Assembly: GCA_001885315.1 (NCBI GenBank)
Contig: MLPZ01000008.1
Span: forward strand, 1-64,000
DNA length: 64,000 nt
DNA from: Treponema sp. CETP13
GTDB lineage: Bacteria; Spirochaetota; Spirochaetia; Treponematales; Treponemataceae
Direction: 5' to 3'
Positions 25,534-44,875 of the stretch are shown piece after piece; position 1 is the stretch's first letter; each line of letters starts with the position of its first letter. The notes beneath the pieces are model-generated. The model saw only the letters and a list, made by a program, of their open reading frames with translations, had not been told where the DNA came from and made no database searches. A program made the translations under genes and the position numbers.

Positions 25534-26979
25534 TTACTTTTTATAATCTTTTACCGCTCTCATTAAGGTTTGTAAAGTAGATTCTAAAGTAGAATCGGAT
25601 CTAAGAAGTTCTTCTATCTTTTGACATGAATGCATGACTGTAGAATGATCTCTACCTCCAAATTCAATTCCAAGTTCTGTTGTTGAATATTCAGTTAGTT
25701 CTCTTGATATATACATGGCTAACTGTCGTGGAAGTGTAACATTTCGAGTTCTTTTTTTACCTTTTAAATCTGATATTGATATATTAAAGTAATCTGCTAC
25801 TACTCGTTGAATATTGTCTACGCTTATATTTGCTTGTTTGGGGGAACTAAAGGTATCCCTCAATTGTTGTTGAGCTATTTCAAGAGTTACTTCTTTTCCT
25901 ACTAAGTCTGTATATGCAATTATTTTTGTTAAACAAGCTTCTAAATCTCGTACATTAGTCGCAATATTTTGAGCAATTAAATCTATAACATCATTTGGAA
26001 TTTGTTTACCTAAAGATGTTAGTTTTTTTTCTAAAATTGCATGTCGTGTTTCATAGTTTGGTGGTTGAAGATCTACATTTAATCCTCTAACAAATCTAGA
26101 ACGTAATCTGTCAGATAATTTTTTTAATTCTGATACTGGGCGATCACAGGTAAATATAATTTGTTTTTTCGCATCATATAATGCATTAAAGGTATGAAAG
26201 AGCTCTTCTTGTGTTCCGTCTTTACTTTCTAAAAAATGAATATCATCAATTAAAAGTACATCAGCATTTCTATATTTATTTTTAAAACTTTGTGCTGCAT
26301 TTCTATCTGATCCTTTTATAGATCTAATAAATTCATTTGTAAAATTTTCTGCAGTAATATAAATAATTTTAGAATCTGGAATATCTGTAGTTTCATATAT
26401 TTCATTACCTATTGCTTCCATAAGGTGAGTTTTGCCTAATCCAACTCCACCATAAATAAGCATAGGATTATATGCTTTACCTGGGTTTTTAGAAATTGCT
26501 TTTGCTGCATTATAAGCAAAGGAATTATTATCTCCAATTACAAAAGATTTAAATGTATATTCTTCTTTTAATAGAGGATGTTGTTTTTTTTTGATAGGAT
26601 ATTCTTTTGTTTGTTTATTTTGAGGTGAAGAATAAACATTTTCATTTACTGTTTTTTGTAATGAGTTGCTAACATATACATTTTTTTTATTTTCTGTAGA
26701 AATAGTACTAGAAAGAGGTTTAACAATCATTTCAATAAATAAATCTTGTCCAGAAATTTCTTTTATTTTAGAAATTAATAGTTTATAATAATTACGTCTT
26801 TTAAATTGATCTGTAATAAATTTTGAAGGTAATGATATAATAATTGAGTTTTCTGTCGATTCTTCATATTGAACTTTGAACCACATAAGAAATTCTTGTT
26901 CACGTTTTTCACTTTTAAAACTTTCGTGAATTTGCGATAGAGCTTCGTCTAAAAATACTTTATAATTCCAATCTGCCAT
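25534..26979 (-). CDS. dnaA: chromosomal replication initiator DnaA
   Basis: DnaA binds DnaA boxes and melts the origin. The 481-residue protein has an N-terminal domain I (to about 90) and a variable linker. The AAA+ core has Walker A GGVGLGKTHL and Walker B VLLIDDIHFLESKDG, and domain IV has the DNA-binding signature GGRDHSTVMHSCQKI. No Shine-Dalgarno sequence precedes the ATG, but TATAAT ends eight bases before it, so the message should be almost leaderless. It points away from gyrB. Confidence 0.98.
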   Translation of the reverse strand: MADWNYKVFLDEALSQIHESFKSEKREQEFLMWFKVQYEESTENSIIISLPSKFITDQFKRRNYYKLLISKIKEISGQDLFIEMIVKPLSSTISTENKKNVYVSNSLQKTVNENVYSSPQNKQTKEYPIKKKQHPLLKEEYTFKSFVIGDNNSFAYNAAKAISKNPGKAYNPMLIYGGVGLGKTHLMEAIGNEIYETTDIPDSKIIYITAENFTNEFIRSIKGSDRNAAQSFKNKYRNADVLLIDDIHFLESKDGTQEELFHTFNALYDAKKQIIFTCDRPVSELKKLSDRLRSRFVRGLNVDLQPPNYETRHAILEKKLTSLGKQIPNDVIDLIAQNIATNVRDLEACLTKIIAYTDLVGKEVTLEIAQQQLRDTFSSPKQANISVDNIQRVVADYFNISISDLKGKKRTRNVTLPRQLAMYISRELTEYSTTELGIEFGGRDHSTVMHSCQKIEELLRSDSTLESTLQTLMRAVKDYKK

Positions 26980-26987
26980 AGTGACAC

Positions 26988-27017
26988 ATTATAACTCGCC
27001 TTTACTTTTTTTAGCAA
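26988..27017 (-). promoter_or_regulatory. dnaA promoter, leaderless type
   Basis: On the minus strand TTGCTA and the consensus TATAAT are separated by 18 bases. The predicted RNA start lies two bases before the dnaA ATG. The divergent dnaA-gyrB gap of about 110 bases holds no TTWTNCACA box. Confidence 0.6.
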
Positions 27018-27090
27018 TACAGATATAATTATTTATCTTTCCTAAGGTGAAGTAATTAAAAAAAAATCTTCACAAATTTAAGGGTTATCC

Positions 27091-29007
27091 ATGAATTCCA
27101 CATATTCCGCAACTAATATACAGGTTTTAAAAGGACTTGAGGCTGTTCGTAAACGCCCAGGGATGTATATCGGTTCTACTGGTCCTAACGGACTTCATCA
27201 TCTTATATATGAAGTAGTTGACAATTCTATTGATGAAGCAATGGCAGGTCAATGTGATCAAATTACTGTTGCTCTCGAAAAAAACGGCTATGCGAGAGTC
27301 GAAGACAACGGGCGAGGTATACCAGTTGATATGCATCCAACTGAAGGTATCCCCGCTTTAGAATTAGTTCTAACTAGGCTTCATGCAGGGGGCAAATTTG
27401 ATAAAGGCTCCTATAAAGTCTCTGGAGGCCTTCATGGTGTTGGTGTGTCGTGTGTAAATGCGTTATCAAAACATCTTGAAGCAACAGTTGCTTTAAACAA
27501 TAAATTGTATCGCATGAATTTTGAATGCGGTAAAACTAAAAGTAAATTAATAGAGTTAGGGTCTACTGATAAGCAAGGAACAACAATTCGTTGGCAAGCA
27601 GATGATACTATTTTCAAAGAAACTACTGAATATAATTATGAAGTACTTTTAAATAGACTTCGCGAACTTGCATTTTTAAATAGTGGCATTACAATTATTT
27701 TTCGTGATGAGCGTTTAGAAGAACCTAAAGAAACTGTTCTTAAATTTGATGGTGGTATTAAACATTTTGTTTCATATTTAAACGAAAATAAAAAAGTTAT
27801 TCCTGCAGAGCCATTGTTTATCGAAGGAACTAAAGATGACATTCAAGTTGAAGTTGCTATCCAATATAATAATGGCTATTCAGAAAATATACTTCCGTTT
27901 GTAAATGATATTCATACTCGTGAAGGTGGTACTCATGTTGAAGGTTTTAAAACTGCACTCACCCGAGTTATGAATAAGTTTTTGGATAAAAATCCAAAAT
28001 TGCAAAAAAAAATGTTTAAGGATGAAAAATTAATTGGAGATGATGTTAGAGCTGGATTAACGGCTGTTCTTTCTACTAAAGTTCCTGATCCTCAGTTTGA
28101 AGGTCAAACAAAAGAAAAATTAGGGAATAGTGAAGTAAAAGGTATTGTTGATTCAGTTGTTAATGAATATTTAACATTATATTTTGAGCAAAATCCTAAA
28201 GTTATCGAAAGTATTTTAGAAAAATGTATTGCAGAAGCAAAAGCTCGAATTGCTGCAAGAAAAGCAAAAGATGCAACACGTAGAAAGAGTGGATTAGATA
28301 GTTTTGGATTACCTGGTAAGCTTTCTGATTGTTCGTCAAAAAATCCTAGTGAATGTGAAGTATATATAGTGGAAGGAGACTCGGCAGGAGGTTCTGCAAA
28401 GAAAGGTCGGGATAGCAAAACTCAAGCTATTTTACCACTTTGGGGCAAAATGCTTAATGTTGAAAAAACACGTGTAGATAAAGTTATAAATAACGAAAAA
28501 CTTCAACCAGTAATTGCATCATTAGGTGCTGGAATAGGTGCCGATTTTAATACAGATAAATTACGATATCACAAAATAATTATAATGGCAGATGCAGATG
28601 TTGATGGATCTCATATACGAACATTATTACTTACTTTCTTTTTTAGATATATGACACCTTTACTTGAAAAAGGATTTGTTTATTTAGCCATGCCTCCTTT
28701 ATATAAAATCACTCTGAAAAAGAAAGAATGGTATGTTTATTCTGATGAAGAAAGAATTGCTATTCTACAAACCTTAGGAGATGAAAAGGATAAAGCATCC
28801 GTTCAACGCTATAAAGGTCTTGGTGAAATGGATGGAAATCAATTATGGGAGACGACCATGGATCCATCTAAACGACGAATGATGAGAGTTTCTATTCCGG
28901 ATGCTGTAGAAGCAGATAAAATGTTTACAACTCTGATGGGTGAAGAAGTTGAGCCACGTCGTAAATTTATTGAAGAAAATGCTGTTTATGCAACTTTGGA
29001 TGTTTAA
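27091..29007 (+). CDS. gyrB: DNA gyrase subunit B
   Basis: GyrB provides the ATPase of DNA gyrase, which adds negative supercoils. At 638 residues it is the short form without the Gram-negative insert. The GHKL ATPase shows VDNSIDEAMAG, EDNGRGIPVDMH and VSGGLHGVGVSCVNAL. The TOPRIM domain has VEGDSAGGSAKKGRD and MADADVDGSHIRTL. AAGGG lies six bases before the ATG. It is the first rightward gene from the origin, followed by gyrA. Confidence 0.98.
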   Translation: MNSTYSATNIQVLKGLEAVRKRPGMYIGSTGPNGLHHLIYEVVDNSIDEAMAGQCDQITVALEKNGYARVEDNGRGIPVDMHPTEGIPALELVLTRLHAGGKFDKGSYKVSGGLHGVGVSCVNALSKHLEATVALNNKLYRMNFECGKTKSKLIELGSTDKQGTTIRWQADDTIFKETTEYNYEVLLNRLRELAFLNSGITIIFRDERLEEPKETVLKFDGGIKHFVSYLNENKKVIPAEPLFIEGTKDDIQVEVAIQYNNGYSENILPFVNDIHTREGGTHVEGFKTALTRVMNKFLDKNPKLQKKMFKDEKLIGDDVRAGLTAVLSTKVPDPQFEGQTKEKLGNSEVKGIVDSVVNEYLTLYFEQNPKVIESILEKCIAEAKARIAARKAKDATRRKSGLDSFGLPGKLSDCSSKNPSECEVYIVEGDSAGGSAKKGRDSKTQAILPLWGKMLNVEKTRVDKVINNEKLQPVIASLGAGIGADFNTDKLRYHKIIIMADADVDGSHIRTLLLTFFFRYMTPLLEKGFVYLAMPPLYKITLKKKEWYVYSDEERIAILQTLGDEKDKASVQRYKGLGEMDGNQLWETTMDPSKRRMMRVSIPDAVEADKMFTTLMGEEVEPRRKFIEENAVYATLDV

Positions 29008-29057
29008 CAGTTATAAAATTTAAGATTTAGTTATTCCTTTAACTGGGAGATTTATAA

Positions 29058-31571
29058 ATGGAAGAAATAAAAACTGAAGCAGGTGGTGTTTTAATACCAA
29101 TGCCAATCGAACAGGAAATGAAAAAAGCTTATATTGATTATTCAATGTCAGTTATTGTAAGCCGTGCACTTCCTGATGTTCGTGATGGATTAAAACCAGT
29201 TCATAGACGTATTTTATATTCAATGGAAGAAAAAGGACTTAGAAATTCTGGTCCTACCCGTAAGTGTGCAAAGATTGTTGGAGATGTACTTGGTAGTTAT
29301 CATCCACATGGTGATGCATCTGTATATGATGCTCTTGTTAGATTAGGTCAAGATTTTTCTCAAAGATATACAGTTATAACTCCTCAGGGAAATTTTGGTA
29401 CTATTGCTGGTGATCCTCCAGCAGCTTATCGTTATACAGAAGCAAAAATGGCTAAATTAGCCGAAACAATGGTAGAAGATATAAAAAAAGATACTGTTGA
29501 TTTTATTCCTAACTTTGATGAAAGCACTCAAGAACCAACTGTTTTGCCTGGTAAATTTCCATTCTTATTATGCAATGGTGGATCGGGAATAGCTGTTGGT
29601 ATGGCAACAAATATGCCACCACATAATCTTACAGAAGTAGGGCAAGCAATTGCTGCTTATGTAGATAATCCTAATATCACGATAGATGAATTAGAAACAT
29701 ATATTTCTGGACCAGATTTTCCTACTGGTGGTATTATTTATGGACACAATGGTATAAAACGAGCGTATCATACTGGTCGTGGAAAAATTATTATTCGTGG
29801 TCGTTTTACAATTGAAACTGAGGATAAAGGTAAAGAAAAAATAATTTTTACAGAAGTTCCTTATCAGGTAAACACAACCACTCTTTGTGAAAAAATTGGT
29901 GCTCTTGCTAGAGATAAACAAATTGAAGGAATCTCTTCTATTAATGATGAAAGTTCTGATCGTACTGGATTGCGAATAGTAATAGGTCTTAAAAAAAGTG
30001 CAATTGCAAAAGTTGTATTAAATCAGTTGTTTTCTAAAACCCAATTACAATCTTCCTTTGGAGTAATTAATCTTGCTTTAGTAAATGGTCGACCACAAGT
30101 TTTAAATCTAAAACAAATGATTAAATATTTTGTTGATCATAGAGAAATTGTAATTACTCGCCGTATTCAGTTTGAATTAAAGAAAGCAGAAGCAAGAGCT
30201 CATATTTTAAGAGCGTTAATAATTGCTATTAATAATATTGATGAAGTTATTCAAATTATCCGTTCATCGCGGGATACTCAAGCTGCTAAAAATGCTTTAA
30301 TATCACGTTTCGAGTTTGATGAGATTCAATCTCAAGCAATTGTTGACATGCAATTAAAACGCTTGACTTCTTTAGAAATAGAAACACTTAAAAAAGAATT
30401 AGAAGAACTCGAAATTTTTATTGAAAAATGTAAGGATCTTCTTGCTCACCCAGAAAAAATATTAAAAATTGTTAAAACAGAAACGCTTGAACTTGTAGAT
30501 AAATTTGGTGATAAAAGAAAAACCGATATTGTTCCCGATGAAATAGAAAAAATTGATGTTGAAGATTTAATTAAAGAAGAAGATATGGTTATTTTAATAT
30601 CTCGTCTTGGGTATATTAAACGTATACCGATTACATCGTATAAAAATCAAGGGAAGGGTGGAAAAGGTTCTAATTCTGCAAAACTTGTTGATGAAGATTA
30701 TGTAAAACAAATATTTATTGCTTCTACTCATGATTATCTTATGTTTATTTCTAATGAGGGAAAAGCTTATTGGATTAAAGTGCATGAAATACCAGAATCT
30801 AGTCGTACTTCTCGTGGAGCTCATATTAAAGGCCTTTTACAAATTAGTTCAGACGAAAAAATAGCTACAGTTGTAAATCTTAAAGATTTTTCTGAAAATG
30901 AATTTATTTTTATGGCTACTCAAAAAGCAGTAGTTAAAAAAGTTAAAACCTATGATTTTAGAAATGCTAAAACGCGTGGTATTTTTGCTATTAATTTGGA
31001 TGAGGGTGATAAAGTCGTTTCTGCATTACTAACTTCTGGTAGTGATGATTTATTATTGTTTTCAAAGAACGGTAAAGCTCTTCGTATGAATGAGGCTCAA
31101 GTTAGACCGATGGGAAGAAGTTCTCATGGTGTAGGTGGTTTACGACTTGCACAAGGAGATTCTCTTACTGCTGCTATTAGAGTTGAAGATGATAAGAAAA
31201 TGCTTTTACTTACAGAGTTTGGATATGGTAAAAGAACAGAATTCTCACAATATTCAACTCATTCACGTAATACACAAGGCCAAATTGGTTATTCTATAAA
31301 TGAAAAAACTGGTAAAGTTATTGGTGCTATTACTATAAGTGAAGAAGACGAATTAATGTGTATTACTAGTCAGGGTAAAACATTGCGTGCAAGTGCTAGT
31401 ACAATTAGTATTCAAGGGCGTTCAACACAAGGAGTAAGAGTTTTAACTATTAATCCACCAGATATGGTAATTGGAATTGATAAGATTGATGCTCAAGATG
31501 TTGATAATGAAGCTAAAACTAGTGAGTCTATTGATGAAAACCTTGATAAAAGCAAAAGTAATAGTGAATAA
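29058..31571 (+). CDS. gyrA: DNA gyrase subunit A
   Basis: GyrA breaks and rejoins DNA. The 837-residue protein has the breakage-reunion domain with [11 protein letters not shown], in which the Tyr is the catalytic residue. The C-terminal beta-pinwheel carries the wrapping motif near RSTQGVRVL, and an acidic tail closes the protein. In the quinolone region it reads [10 protein letters not shown], so the residue equal to E. coli Ser83 is Ala. GGGAG precedes the ATG. A bidirectional-looking terminator follows. Confidence 0.98.
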
Positions 31572-43160: not shown

Positions 43161-43189
43161 TTGACAAAACTTACTTGTTCTGTTTTAAT
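43161..43189 (+). promoter_or_regulatory. promoter of the his leader transcript
   Basis: TTGACA (43161-43166) and TTTAAT (43184-43189) are separated by 17 bases. The predicted RNA start at about 43196 lies three bases before the leader-peptide ATG. Confidence 0.65.
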
Positions 43190-43198
43190 AATATTGTA

Positions 43199-43276
43199 AT
43201 GAATAAAGCAGTACTACATCTACACATCCATCATTCTCATAAAAGTACCCGAATGGGGGATGTGTTAGTTTTATAG
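43199..43276 (+). CDS. hisL: histidine operon leader peptide
   Basis: A 25-residue frame encodes MNKAVLHLHIHHSHKSTR and a short tail, with five His codons among eight consecutive codons. It stands directly before the hisG attenuator. In his attenuation the ribosome stalls at such a run when charged tRNA-His is scarce and shifts the RNA from terminator to antiterminator. The ATG is preceded by no Shine-Dalgarno sequence but lies close to the predicted RNA start, so it may be read as a leaderless message. Confidence 0.8.
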   Translation: MNKAVLHLHIHHSHKSTRMGDVLVL

Positions 43277-43350
43277 CTGTAAAAGACAGCACTATAAAAT
43301 GAAGCCGCTAACCTGTTCGCTTATATGCGAAATAGGGAGCGGCTTTTTTT
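43222..43350 (+). terminator. his attenuator: pause hairpin, middle hairpin and terminator
   Basis: ACACATCC (43222-43229), which overlaps the His codons, pairs with GGATGTGT (43258-43265). A second hairpin is TATAGCTGT with ACAGCACTATA, across the leader stop codon. The terminator is AGCCGCT...CGC with GCG...AGCGGCT (43303-43344), followed by seven T. The antiterminator pairing has not been worked out. Confidence 0.75.
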
Positions 43351-43378
43351 ATTAATTGCTAAAAATTAGGAGACAATT

Positions 43379-44233
43379 ATGGACAAACTTAAAATCTTAT
43401 TACCAAAAGGTAGAATTTACGAAAACGTTGTAAGCTTATTTAGTGGAGCAGGAATTAAAATTTCTCTACCAGATCGTGCATATCGACCAACTGTAAACCA
43501 AGATGATCTTGAAGCAAAGGTTATGAAACCACAAAACATTGGCAAACTTTTGGAACTCGGAGCTCATGATGTAGGGTTTACAGGACGTGATTGGGTTGAA
43601 GAAACAGGTGTAGAAGTAGAAGAAATCCTAGATTTAGGATTTGATAAAGTTCGCCTTATAGCTGCTGTCCCAAATGAAATTGATGATAGTTTTATATATA
43701 GTAAACGAGTAATTGTTGCAACTGAATATGATAAAATTGCACAAAGATGGCTTGATAAACAAAAAATAAACGCTCTTGTAGTGCACACAAATGGAGCAAC
43801 AGAAGTTTTCCCACCAGATGATGCTGATATGATTATTGATAACACTTCGACAGGACGTACTCTAAAAGAAAACGGATTACGTATTGTAGATACAATTATG
43901 ACAAGTTCTACACGAATGTTTGCATCTAAAGAAGCAATGAAAGATCCCGCTAAAAAACAAAAAATTATGGAACTCAAAATGCTTTTTGAAGCAGTTTTAG
44001 ATGCTCGAGATAAGGTGATGCTCGAAATGAATGTTACAAAAGAAAATTTCGAGCAATTAGTCAAAGGGATTCCTGCTATGCGTAGCCCTACTGTTTCTCC
44101 ATTATATGGGAATGATGGATATGCGATTAAAGTAGCTGTATCTAAGGGTGAAGTTCCTGTGTTATTGCCACAGCTTAAAAAATTAGGTGCAACAGATATT
44201 TTGGAATATGATTTACGTAAAGTGCTTGCATAG
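43379..44233 (+). CDS. hisG: ATP phosphoribosyltransferase, long form
   Basis: The first enzyme of histidine synthesis, condensing ATP with PRPP. At 284 residues it is the long, self-sufficient form. The catalytic bilobed part has KILLPKGRIYENV, GFTGRDWVEE and the PRPP loop DMIIDNTSTGRTLKENGL. The C-terminal regulatory domain binds histidine (IPAMRSPTVSPLYG and the last 80 residues). TAGGAG precedes the ATG. It is the first gene behind the attenuator, with hisB next. Confidence 0.96.
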   Translation: MDKLKILLPKGRIYENVVSLFSGAGIKISLPDRAYRPTVNQDDLEAKVMKPQNIGKLLELGAHDVGFTGRDWVEETGVEVEEILDLGFDKVRLIAAVPNEIDDSFIYSKRVIVATEYDKIAQRWLDKQKINALVVHTNGATEVFPPDDADMIIDNTSTGRTLKENGLRIVDTIMTSSTRMFASKEAMKDPAKKQKIMELKMLFEAVLDARDKVMLEMNVTKENFEQLVKGIPAMRSPTVSPLYGNDGYAIKVAVSKGEVPVLLPQLKKLGATDILEYDLRKVLA

Positions 44234-44269: not shown

Positions 44270-44875
44270 ATGGCACGAATAGCAACAATAAAAAGAGATA
44301 CAACAGAAACACAGATAACCCTAACCCTTAATCTTGATGGGACAGGTAAATGTTCAGTAAAAAATCCTATAGGATTTTTTAATCACATGCTTAGTGCTTT
44401 TTGTAAACACGGTATGTTCGATTTAAGTGGTGAATTAAAAGGTGATTTAGAAGTTGACCAACACCATTTAATCGAAGATACAGGAATAGTTCTTGGACAA
44501 TGTTTTATTAAAGCGCTTGGAAACTGTGCAGGTATTTATAGAAGTGGCTCTTGTTTGTATCCTATGGATGAAAGTCTTTGTCGTGCTGCTGTCGATTTTG
44601 GTGGCCGTCCGTATTTAGTTTGTGAGGCAGATTTAAGTAATATACCACTTGTTTCAGATGGTAAATCATTTCAGACGGATTGTTTTGAAGATTTTTGGCA
44701 AGGGTTTGTTTCCCATGCGCAATGCAATTTGCATCTTGATATTTTACGTGGCCGAAATGATCACCATAAAATGGAAGGACTTTTTAAAGCAGCAAGTCGA
44801 GCCATTCGCGAAGCTGTGACAGTTGATGAGCGACGGAAAGGTCAAATACCTTCAACTAAAGGGATAATCGTTTAA
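44270..44875 (+). CDS. hisB: imidazoleglycerol-phosphate dehydratase
   Basis: The enzyme of step six or seven of histidine synthesis, a manganese enzyme. The 201-residue protein shows the repeated metal motifs GFFNHMLSAFCKHGMFD, DQHHLIEDTGIVLGQ, SHAQCNLHLDI and RNDHHKMEGLFKAASRA. It has no phosphatase domain, so histidinol-phosphate phosphatase is elsewhere. GGAG lies before the ATG. Only hisG and hisB are here; the other his genes must lie outside the window. Confidence 0.96.
   Translation: MARIATIKRDTTETQITLTLNLDGTGKCSVKNPIGFFNHMLSAFCKHGMFDLSGELKGDLEVDQHHLIEDTGIVLGQCFIKALGNCAGIYRSGSCLYPMDESLCRAAVDFGGRPYLVCEADLSNIPLVSDGKSFQTDCFEDFWQGFVSHAQCNLHLDILRGRNDHHKMEGLFKAASRAIREAVTVDERRKGQIPSTKGIIV

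Follow-up and report, generated by a model that had tools for sequence, protein, structure and literature searches.

The hisG gene of Treponema sp. CETP13 is preceded by a short reading frame rich in histidine codons and by a hairpin with a U tract, which raises the question of whether the two form an attenuator of histidine biosynthesis. The original prediction read this leader as his attenuation by ribosome stalling, guessed that the peptide might be translated from a leaderless RNA, and knew of no description of such control in spirochaetes. We likewise found no published description of his attenuation in spirochaetes or in Treponema in the open-access literature searched. The window analyzed here is the whole stretch of 64,000 nucleotides at positions 1 to 64,000 of contig MLPZ01000008.1. 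By computation we established the anatomy of the leader, its conservation, folds that depend on the position of the ribosome, and a missing Shine-Dalgarno sequence combined with fixed promoter spacing. We conclude that the leader is very probably a transcription attenuator worked by the ribosome, which turns on hisG-hisB when charged His-tRNA runs short.

A histidine-rich leader upstream of hisG

The 25-codon frame that had been predicted is present (Table 1), and its His codons are codons 7, 9, 11, 12 and 14, counting the ATG as codon 1. CAT or CAC makes up five of the eight codons from 43217 on, and the frame ends with a stop codon at 43274-43276. When the intergenic region was shuffled with dinucleotides preserved, only 1 of 3000 shuffles contained 5 His codons in 8 in any forward frame.

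Table 1. Features of the hisG leader and the genes that follow it, in coordinates of the window.
Feature	Position	Strand	Basis
-35 element, TTGACA	43161..43166	+	sequence; TTGAC common to relatives
-10 element, TTTAAT, spacer 17	43184..43189	+	sequence; -10 scores
his leader peptide ORF, 25 codons, MNKAVLHLHIHHSHKSTRMGDVLVL then stop, no Shine-Dalgarno	43199..43276	+	sequence
Regulatory stretch, His codons at 43217, 43223, 43229, 43232 and 43238	43217..43240	+	sequence and shuffles
Segment 1 (43222-43229 pairs with 43258-43265, 43231-43236 with 43251-43256)	43222..43236	+	fold; family shuffles
Segment 2, 5' strand of the candidate antiterminator, CGAATGGG, codons 18-20	43250..43257	+	folds of ribosome-masked RNA
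Middle hairpin containing the stop codon 43274-43276	43268..43300	+	folds
Intrinsic terminator with U tract, 5' arm containing segment 3	43301..43350	+	folds
Segment 3, CCTGTTCG, within the terminator 5' arm	43312..43319	+	folds
hisG Shine-Dalgarno, AGGAG	43368..43372	+	sequence
hisG, ATP phosphoribosyltransferase, long form	43379..44233	+	TIGR00070, PF01634 and PF08029
hisB, imidazoleglycerol-phosphate dehydratase	44270..44875	+	PF00475

An HSP90 family gene (PF00183) lies upstream of the leader in divergent orientation, and a sodium:dicarboxylate symporter family gene (PF00375; 44897-46123, minus strand) is convergent with hisB. Elsewhere in the window, at 25534-31571, a 481-aa ORF on the minus strand that reads as DnaA is followed by plus-strand ORFs that read as GyrB and GyrA (names taken from the translations), a layout typical of a replication origin region. 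A Leu-rich, leaderless short ORF at 27254 was set aside as a chance match, since it falls inside the gyrB-like gene.

Distribution of the leader among spirochaetes

A HisG scan of public genomes yielded a first sample of 80 related loci from Treponema and other spirochaetes, and we scanned the 800 nt upstream of hisG for His codons in 81 loci, the window included. At least 5 His codons in 8 occurred on the forward strand of 16 of these 81 upstream regions versus 1 on the reverse strand; as a control, sequence within and 3' of hisG reached that level in 1 of 80 loci. Cultured species are among those with a leader, for example Brucepastera parasyntrophica (L043, MSTVLNLCHHHHAFLQGAIPG) and Breznakiella homolactica (L052). 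Pattern searches for His runs elsewhere in the window's own genome, with 24 and 35 matches, proved too unspecific to serve alone.

A second sample, which shared few genomes with the first, comprised 296 genomes of the phylum and 80 upstream regions, 22 of which contained leaders. By family, leaders preceded hisG in 5 of 37 regions in f1 (plus the window), 2 of 2 in f2, 3 of 6 in f3, 1 of 1 in f4 and 10 of 11 in f12; none was found in the single f13 region or in the 22 regions from outside the class. Within the window's own family, no leader was seen in any sampled genome of the large genus g4, and Treponema parvum and T. socranskii also had none. Family f12 shares the window's class but falls in another order, and its HisG proteins are only about 30% identical to that of the window. 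Its leaders therefore indicate either an early origin of the device within the class or more than one origin.

Altogether we examined 53 loci with His-rich leaders upstream of hisG, window included, and the clustered His codons that characterize leader ORFs of amino acid gene attenuators were found throughout. The His codons are kept in frame after the start codon while the remainder of the peptide varies. In dozens of relatives, then, the His run and the competing stems described below have both been kept. In three leaders (L035, L127 and L128) the start codon seems to be GTG and not ATG, though they too are without a Shine-Dalgarno sequence.

The genome of the window has a second his cluster (L188, contig C10, 88500-97500) with hisD and a HisA/F-family gene, and no His-rich leader was found there. 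Because this other located cluster is without a leader, attenuator control in this genome may be directed mostly at the pathway's first enzyme.

Promoter placement and a predicted leaderless start

Nearly all leaders (52 of 53) are without a Shine-Dalgarno-like stretch of at least 4 bases, whereas 50 of the 53 hisG starts have one. In those 52 leaders, TTGAC lies 35-43 nt 5' of the start codon (35-40 nt in 51 of them). The best -10 element, sought 16-18 nt past the -35, has its end 6-10 nt ahead of the start codon in 51 of the 53 loci. Start codons were mostly chosen using promoter position, so the spacing is partly circular as evidence, which the missing Shine-Dalgarno is not. The -10 elements scored 4.98, versus 3.44 (sd 0.14) for shuffled spacers, across the 53 loci. 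Absence of a Shine-Dalgarno sequence together with a promoter placed at the start codon is the sequence signature of a leaderless mRNA, with the reservation that the choice of start was partly guided by the promoter. From this arrangement the predicted RNA 5' end is no more than about 4 nt away from the start codon, which in the window puts it at about 43195-43199. On the plus strand between 43276 and the hisG start, a simple scan, which also missed the TTTAAT promoter, returned no promoter-like site.

The same attenuator could instead be read from an ordinary mRNA with a 5' UTR and a promoter further upstream, so that the leaders would be leaderless in appearance only. We consider this improbable. 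It would accommodate the window, where TTTAAT is an imperfect -10 element ending 9 nt before the ATG and allows a 5' UTR of a few nucleotides, and one locus of f12, L145 (genome G250), indicates that the device tolerates a 5' leader. The missing Shine-Dalgarno sequences, the position of TTGAC, the -10-like scores far above those of shuffled spacers and the narrow range in which the -10 ends all argue against it. L145 itself is the sole leader with a Shine-Dalgarno sequence (AGGAGG), and its -35 lies at 57 nt instead of 35-43 nt; this pairing of a Shine-Dalgarno with a displaced promoter is what would be expected if the other leaders are leaderless. L145 would be a natural switch between the leaderless and leadered states. 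A leaderless start is the best-supported reading, and the leaders look leaderless, in keeping with the earlier guess.

A terminator between the leader ORF and hisG

The terminator, predicted to lie 29 bases before hisG, was borne out: the hairpin at 43301-43346 plus its U tract has a folding energy of -26.3 kcal/mol and lies 29 nt 5' of the hisG ATG by script count. The stretch 43296-43355 folded at -27.5, versus -11.1 (sd 2.7) in shuffles, and the leader as a whole gave a z of -6.3 against shuffles. An intrinsic terminator thus separates the leader ORF from the structural gene in the window. Hairpins with a U-rich tail occur in nearly all relatives, eight of the hairpins having been set by hand.

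We also weighed whether the main effect of the hairpin is on hisG translation or RNA stability and not on transcription termination. In six loci (L053, L061, L062, L067, L073 and L097) it stands just 15-19 nt before the hisG start, close enough to suit such a role, but most hairpins lie 28-112 nt from hisG, the window's among them, too far to mask the Shine-Dalgarno directly, and the U-rich tract that follows nearly all of them points to termination. This alternative is accordingly highly improbable.

State-dependent folding and a candidate antiterminator

The minimum-energy fold of the free RNA contains the pairing over the His codons that had been foreseen (43222-43229 with 43258-43265), along with an extra stem, 43231-43236 with 43251-43256, and together these segment 1 pairings sequester segment 2. 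The middle hairpin across the stop codon was found as well, and is possibly a pause hairpin.

The original prediction named no antiterminator. We folded the RNA with the part covered by a ribosome masked (12-nt mask) and with its end set before the 3' arm of the terminator, and found that segment 2 pairs with segment 3 and encloses the middle hairpin. This pairing, 43250-43257 with 43312-43319, is the likely antiterminator. In the window it formed only when the A site lay on codons 6-16, and was absent for A-site codons 2-5 and from about codon 18 to the stop. Upstream pairing of the terminator 5' arm was accordingly about 13 of 20 bases at A-site codons 6-16 and 0.2 at the stop. Varying the mask offset between 9 and 15 nt moved the A-site range by one codon in either direction, and His codons 7-14 always remained inside it.

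Taken by itself, the antiterminator of the window is not significant: 18 of 60 shuffles reached its stall level and 4 of 60 its stall-stop difference. The significance therefore comes from the family. Across the 53 loci, mean pairing of the 5' arm was 0.74 at the His stall versus 0.28-0.46 at the stop, and stall exceeded stop in 46-52 loci, depending on the mask offset. In a set of 30 loci, the mean stall level was 0.74 versus 0.56 (sd 0.04) for shuffles. The preference for the antiterminator at the His stall exceeds shuffles family-wide. For 35 dissimilar leaders, both competing pairings exceeded composition-matched chance: shuffles that kept composition gave a mean z of -1.42 (SE 0.18) for the pairing of segments 2 and 3, and of -1.56 (SE 0.28) for that of the His strand with its partner. 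Swapping partners between loci weakened both pairings, and none of 20000 permutations equalled the true pairs, a test that is inflated by relatedness and shared base composition and for which the shuffles on 35 leaders correct better.

Five loci (L003, L004, L005, L007 and L022) gave no clear loss of the antiterminator at the stop with the 12-nt mask. In these loci the leader ORF is short, with 15-16 codons, and the off state may be reached by release of the ribosome and refolding of the His strand.

Comparison with known attenuators

The attenuator of the enterobacterial his operon is laid out in six segments, A-F. In E. coli trpL, the regulatory codons overlap with segment 1, and segment 1 keeps segment 2 paired; when free, segment 2 pairs instead with the 5' arm of the terminator. 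The window shares with trpL a segment 1 over the regulatory codons and a segment 2 directed at the terminator 5' arm, and departs from it in its codons (His in place of Trp), in the middle hairpin that separates segments 2 and 3, and in an apparently leaderless start. Its predicted topology is closer to the three-segment trp-type switch than to the six-segment his attenuator. With enterobacterial hisL (PMC3896937, PMC9413887), the window has in common a leader peptide in which His codons cluster, placed ahead of the first his gene, together with an intrinsic terminator and a competing antiterminator. The seven His codons of hisL are consecutive (PMC3896937), while those of the window are interrupted; the window also differs in its missing Shine-Dalgarno sequence, its promoter-proximal start and its single antiterminator stem (segments 2 and 3) enclosing the middle hairpin.

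Both features have precedents elsewhere, separately: his attenuators are established in enterobacteria, and leaderless attenuator peptides have been reported in other phyla. Further reports give predicted his attenuators in the Bacillus cereus group, Peptostreptococcaceae and Erysipelotrichales (PMC9413887) and a his leader before hisS/hisZ in bacilli (PMC2965389). These Firmicutes systems, found by comparative genomics, likewise have a His-codon leader peptide, a terminator and an antiterminator; they belong to another phylum, are likened here by description, and in the excerpts of both sources leaderless starts are not mentioned. Attenuator peptides whose translation begins at the extreme 5' end of the transcript, as we propose for the window, are those of Sinorhizobium meliloti trpL (PMC7298713) and Streptomyces lividans leuL, trpL and ilvL (PMC8079986), which concern other amino acids and phyla and whose 5' ends were mapped, whereas that of the window is inferred. 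In Leptospira, also a spirochaete, 5'-end mapping has revealed many leaderless mRNAs (PMC5243855).

We give almost no credence to the idea that hisG responds to a bound protein or tRNA, for instance through a T-box, and that the His run is incidental: T-boxes and the HisR repressor do control his genes in Firmicutes (PMC9413887), but neither the window nor 11 related loci matched any Rfam family (release 15) at gathering thresholds, and it is the His codons that are kept in frame while the rest of the peptide varies. The T-box riboswitch gave no covariance-model match in the window or the 11 loci and was not among the weak matches to the window leader. His_leader (RF00514) had no match at gathering score in the window or the 11 loci, and none at E values up to 5 in the window leader.

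Proposed mechanism and implications

The conserved His codons, the competing stems and the state-dependent folds support attenuation by ribosome stalling as originally proposed; how stalling, termination and read-through would proceed in the cell we infer from the folds. RNA polymerase would start at, or no more than about 4 nt from, the leader ATG, and a ribosome would load directly on the RNA 5' end. Stalled at the His codons, the ribosome would hold segment 1 and leave segment 2 free to pair with 43312-43319 as the 5' arm of the terminator emerges; the antiterminator would then block the terminator and hisG would be transcribed. With histidine plentiful, the ribosome would reach the stop codon and mask segment 2, and the terminator would form. 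If no ribosome has loaded, segment 1 would pair across segment 2, again favoring the terminator. Once complete, the terminator of the window exceeds the antiterminator in stability, so the switch must be a kinetic one that acts while transcription is under way.

A broader proposal is that this is an old, class-wide his attenuator of Spirochaetia whose leader is obligately translated from leaderless RNA, making it a sensor that needs ribosome loading at the 5' end and may also report the state of leaderless translation, such as the availability of 70S ribosomes. We regard this broader proposal as speculative and rather unlikely.

As no Rfam family was matched, the leader could become a new Rfam entry. 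The attenuator described here would extend translation-coupled amino acid attenuation to a phylum for which we found no description of it in the open-access literature. For a leaderless peptide to govern a terminator some 100 nt further on, transcription and translation in these spirochaetes would have to be tightly coupled, and the conserved start, if leaderless as it appears, would be a natural, testable reporter for leaderless initiation.
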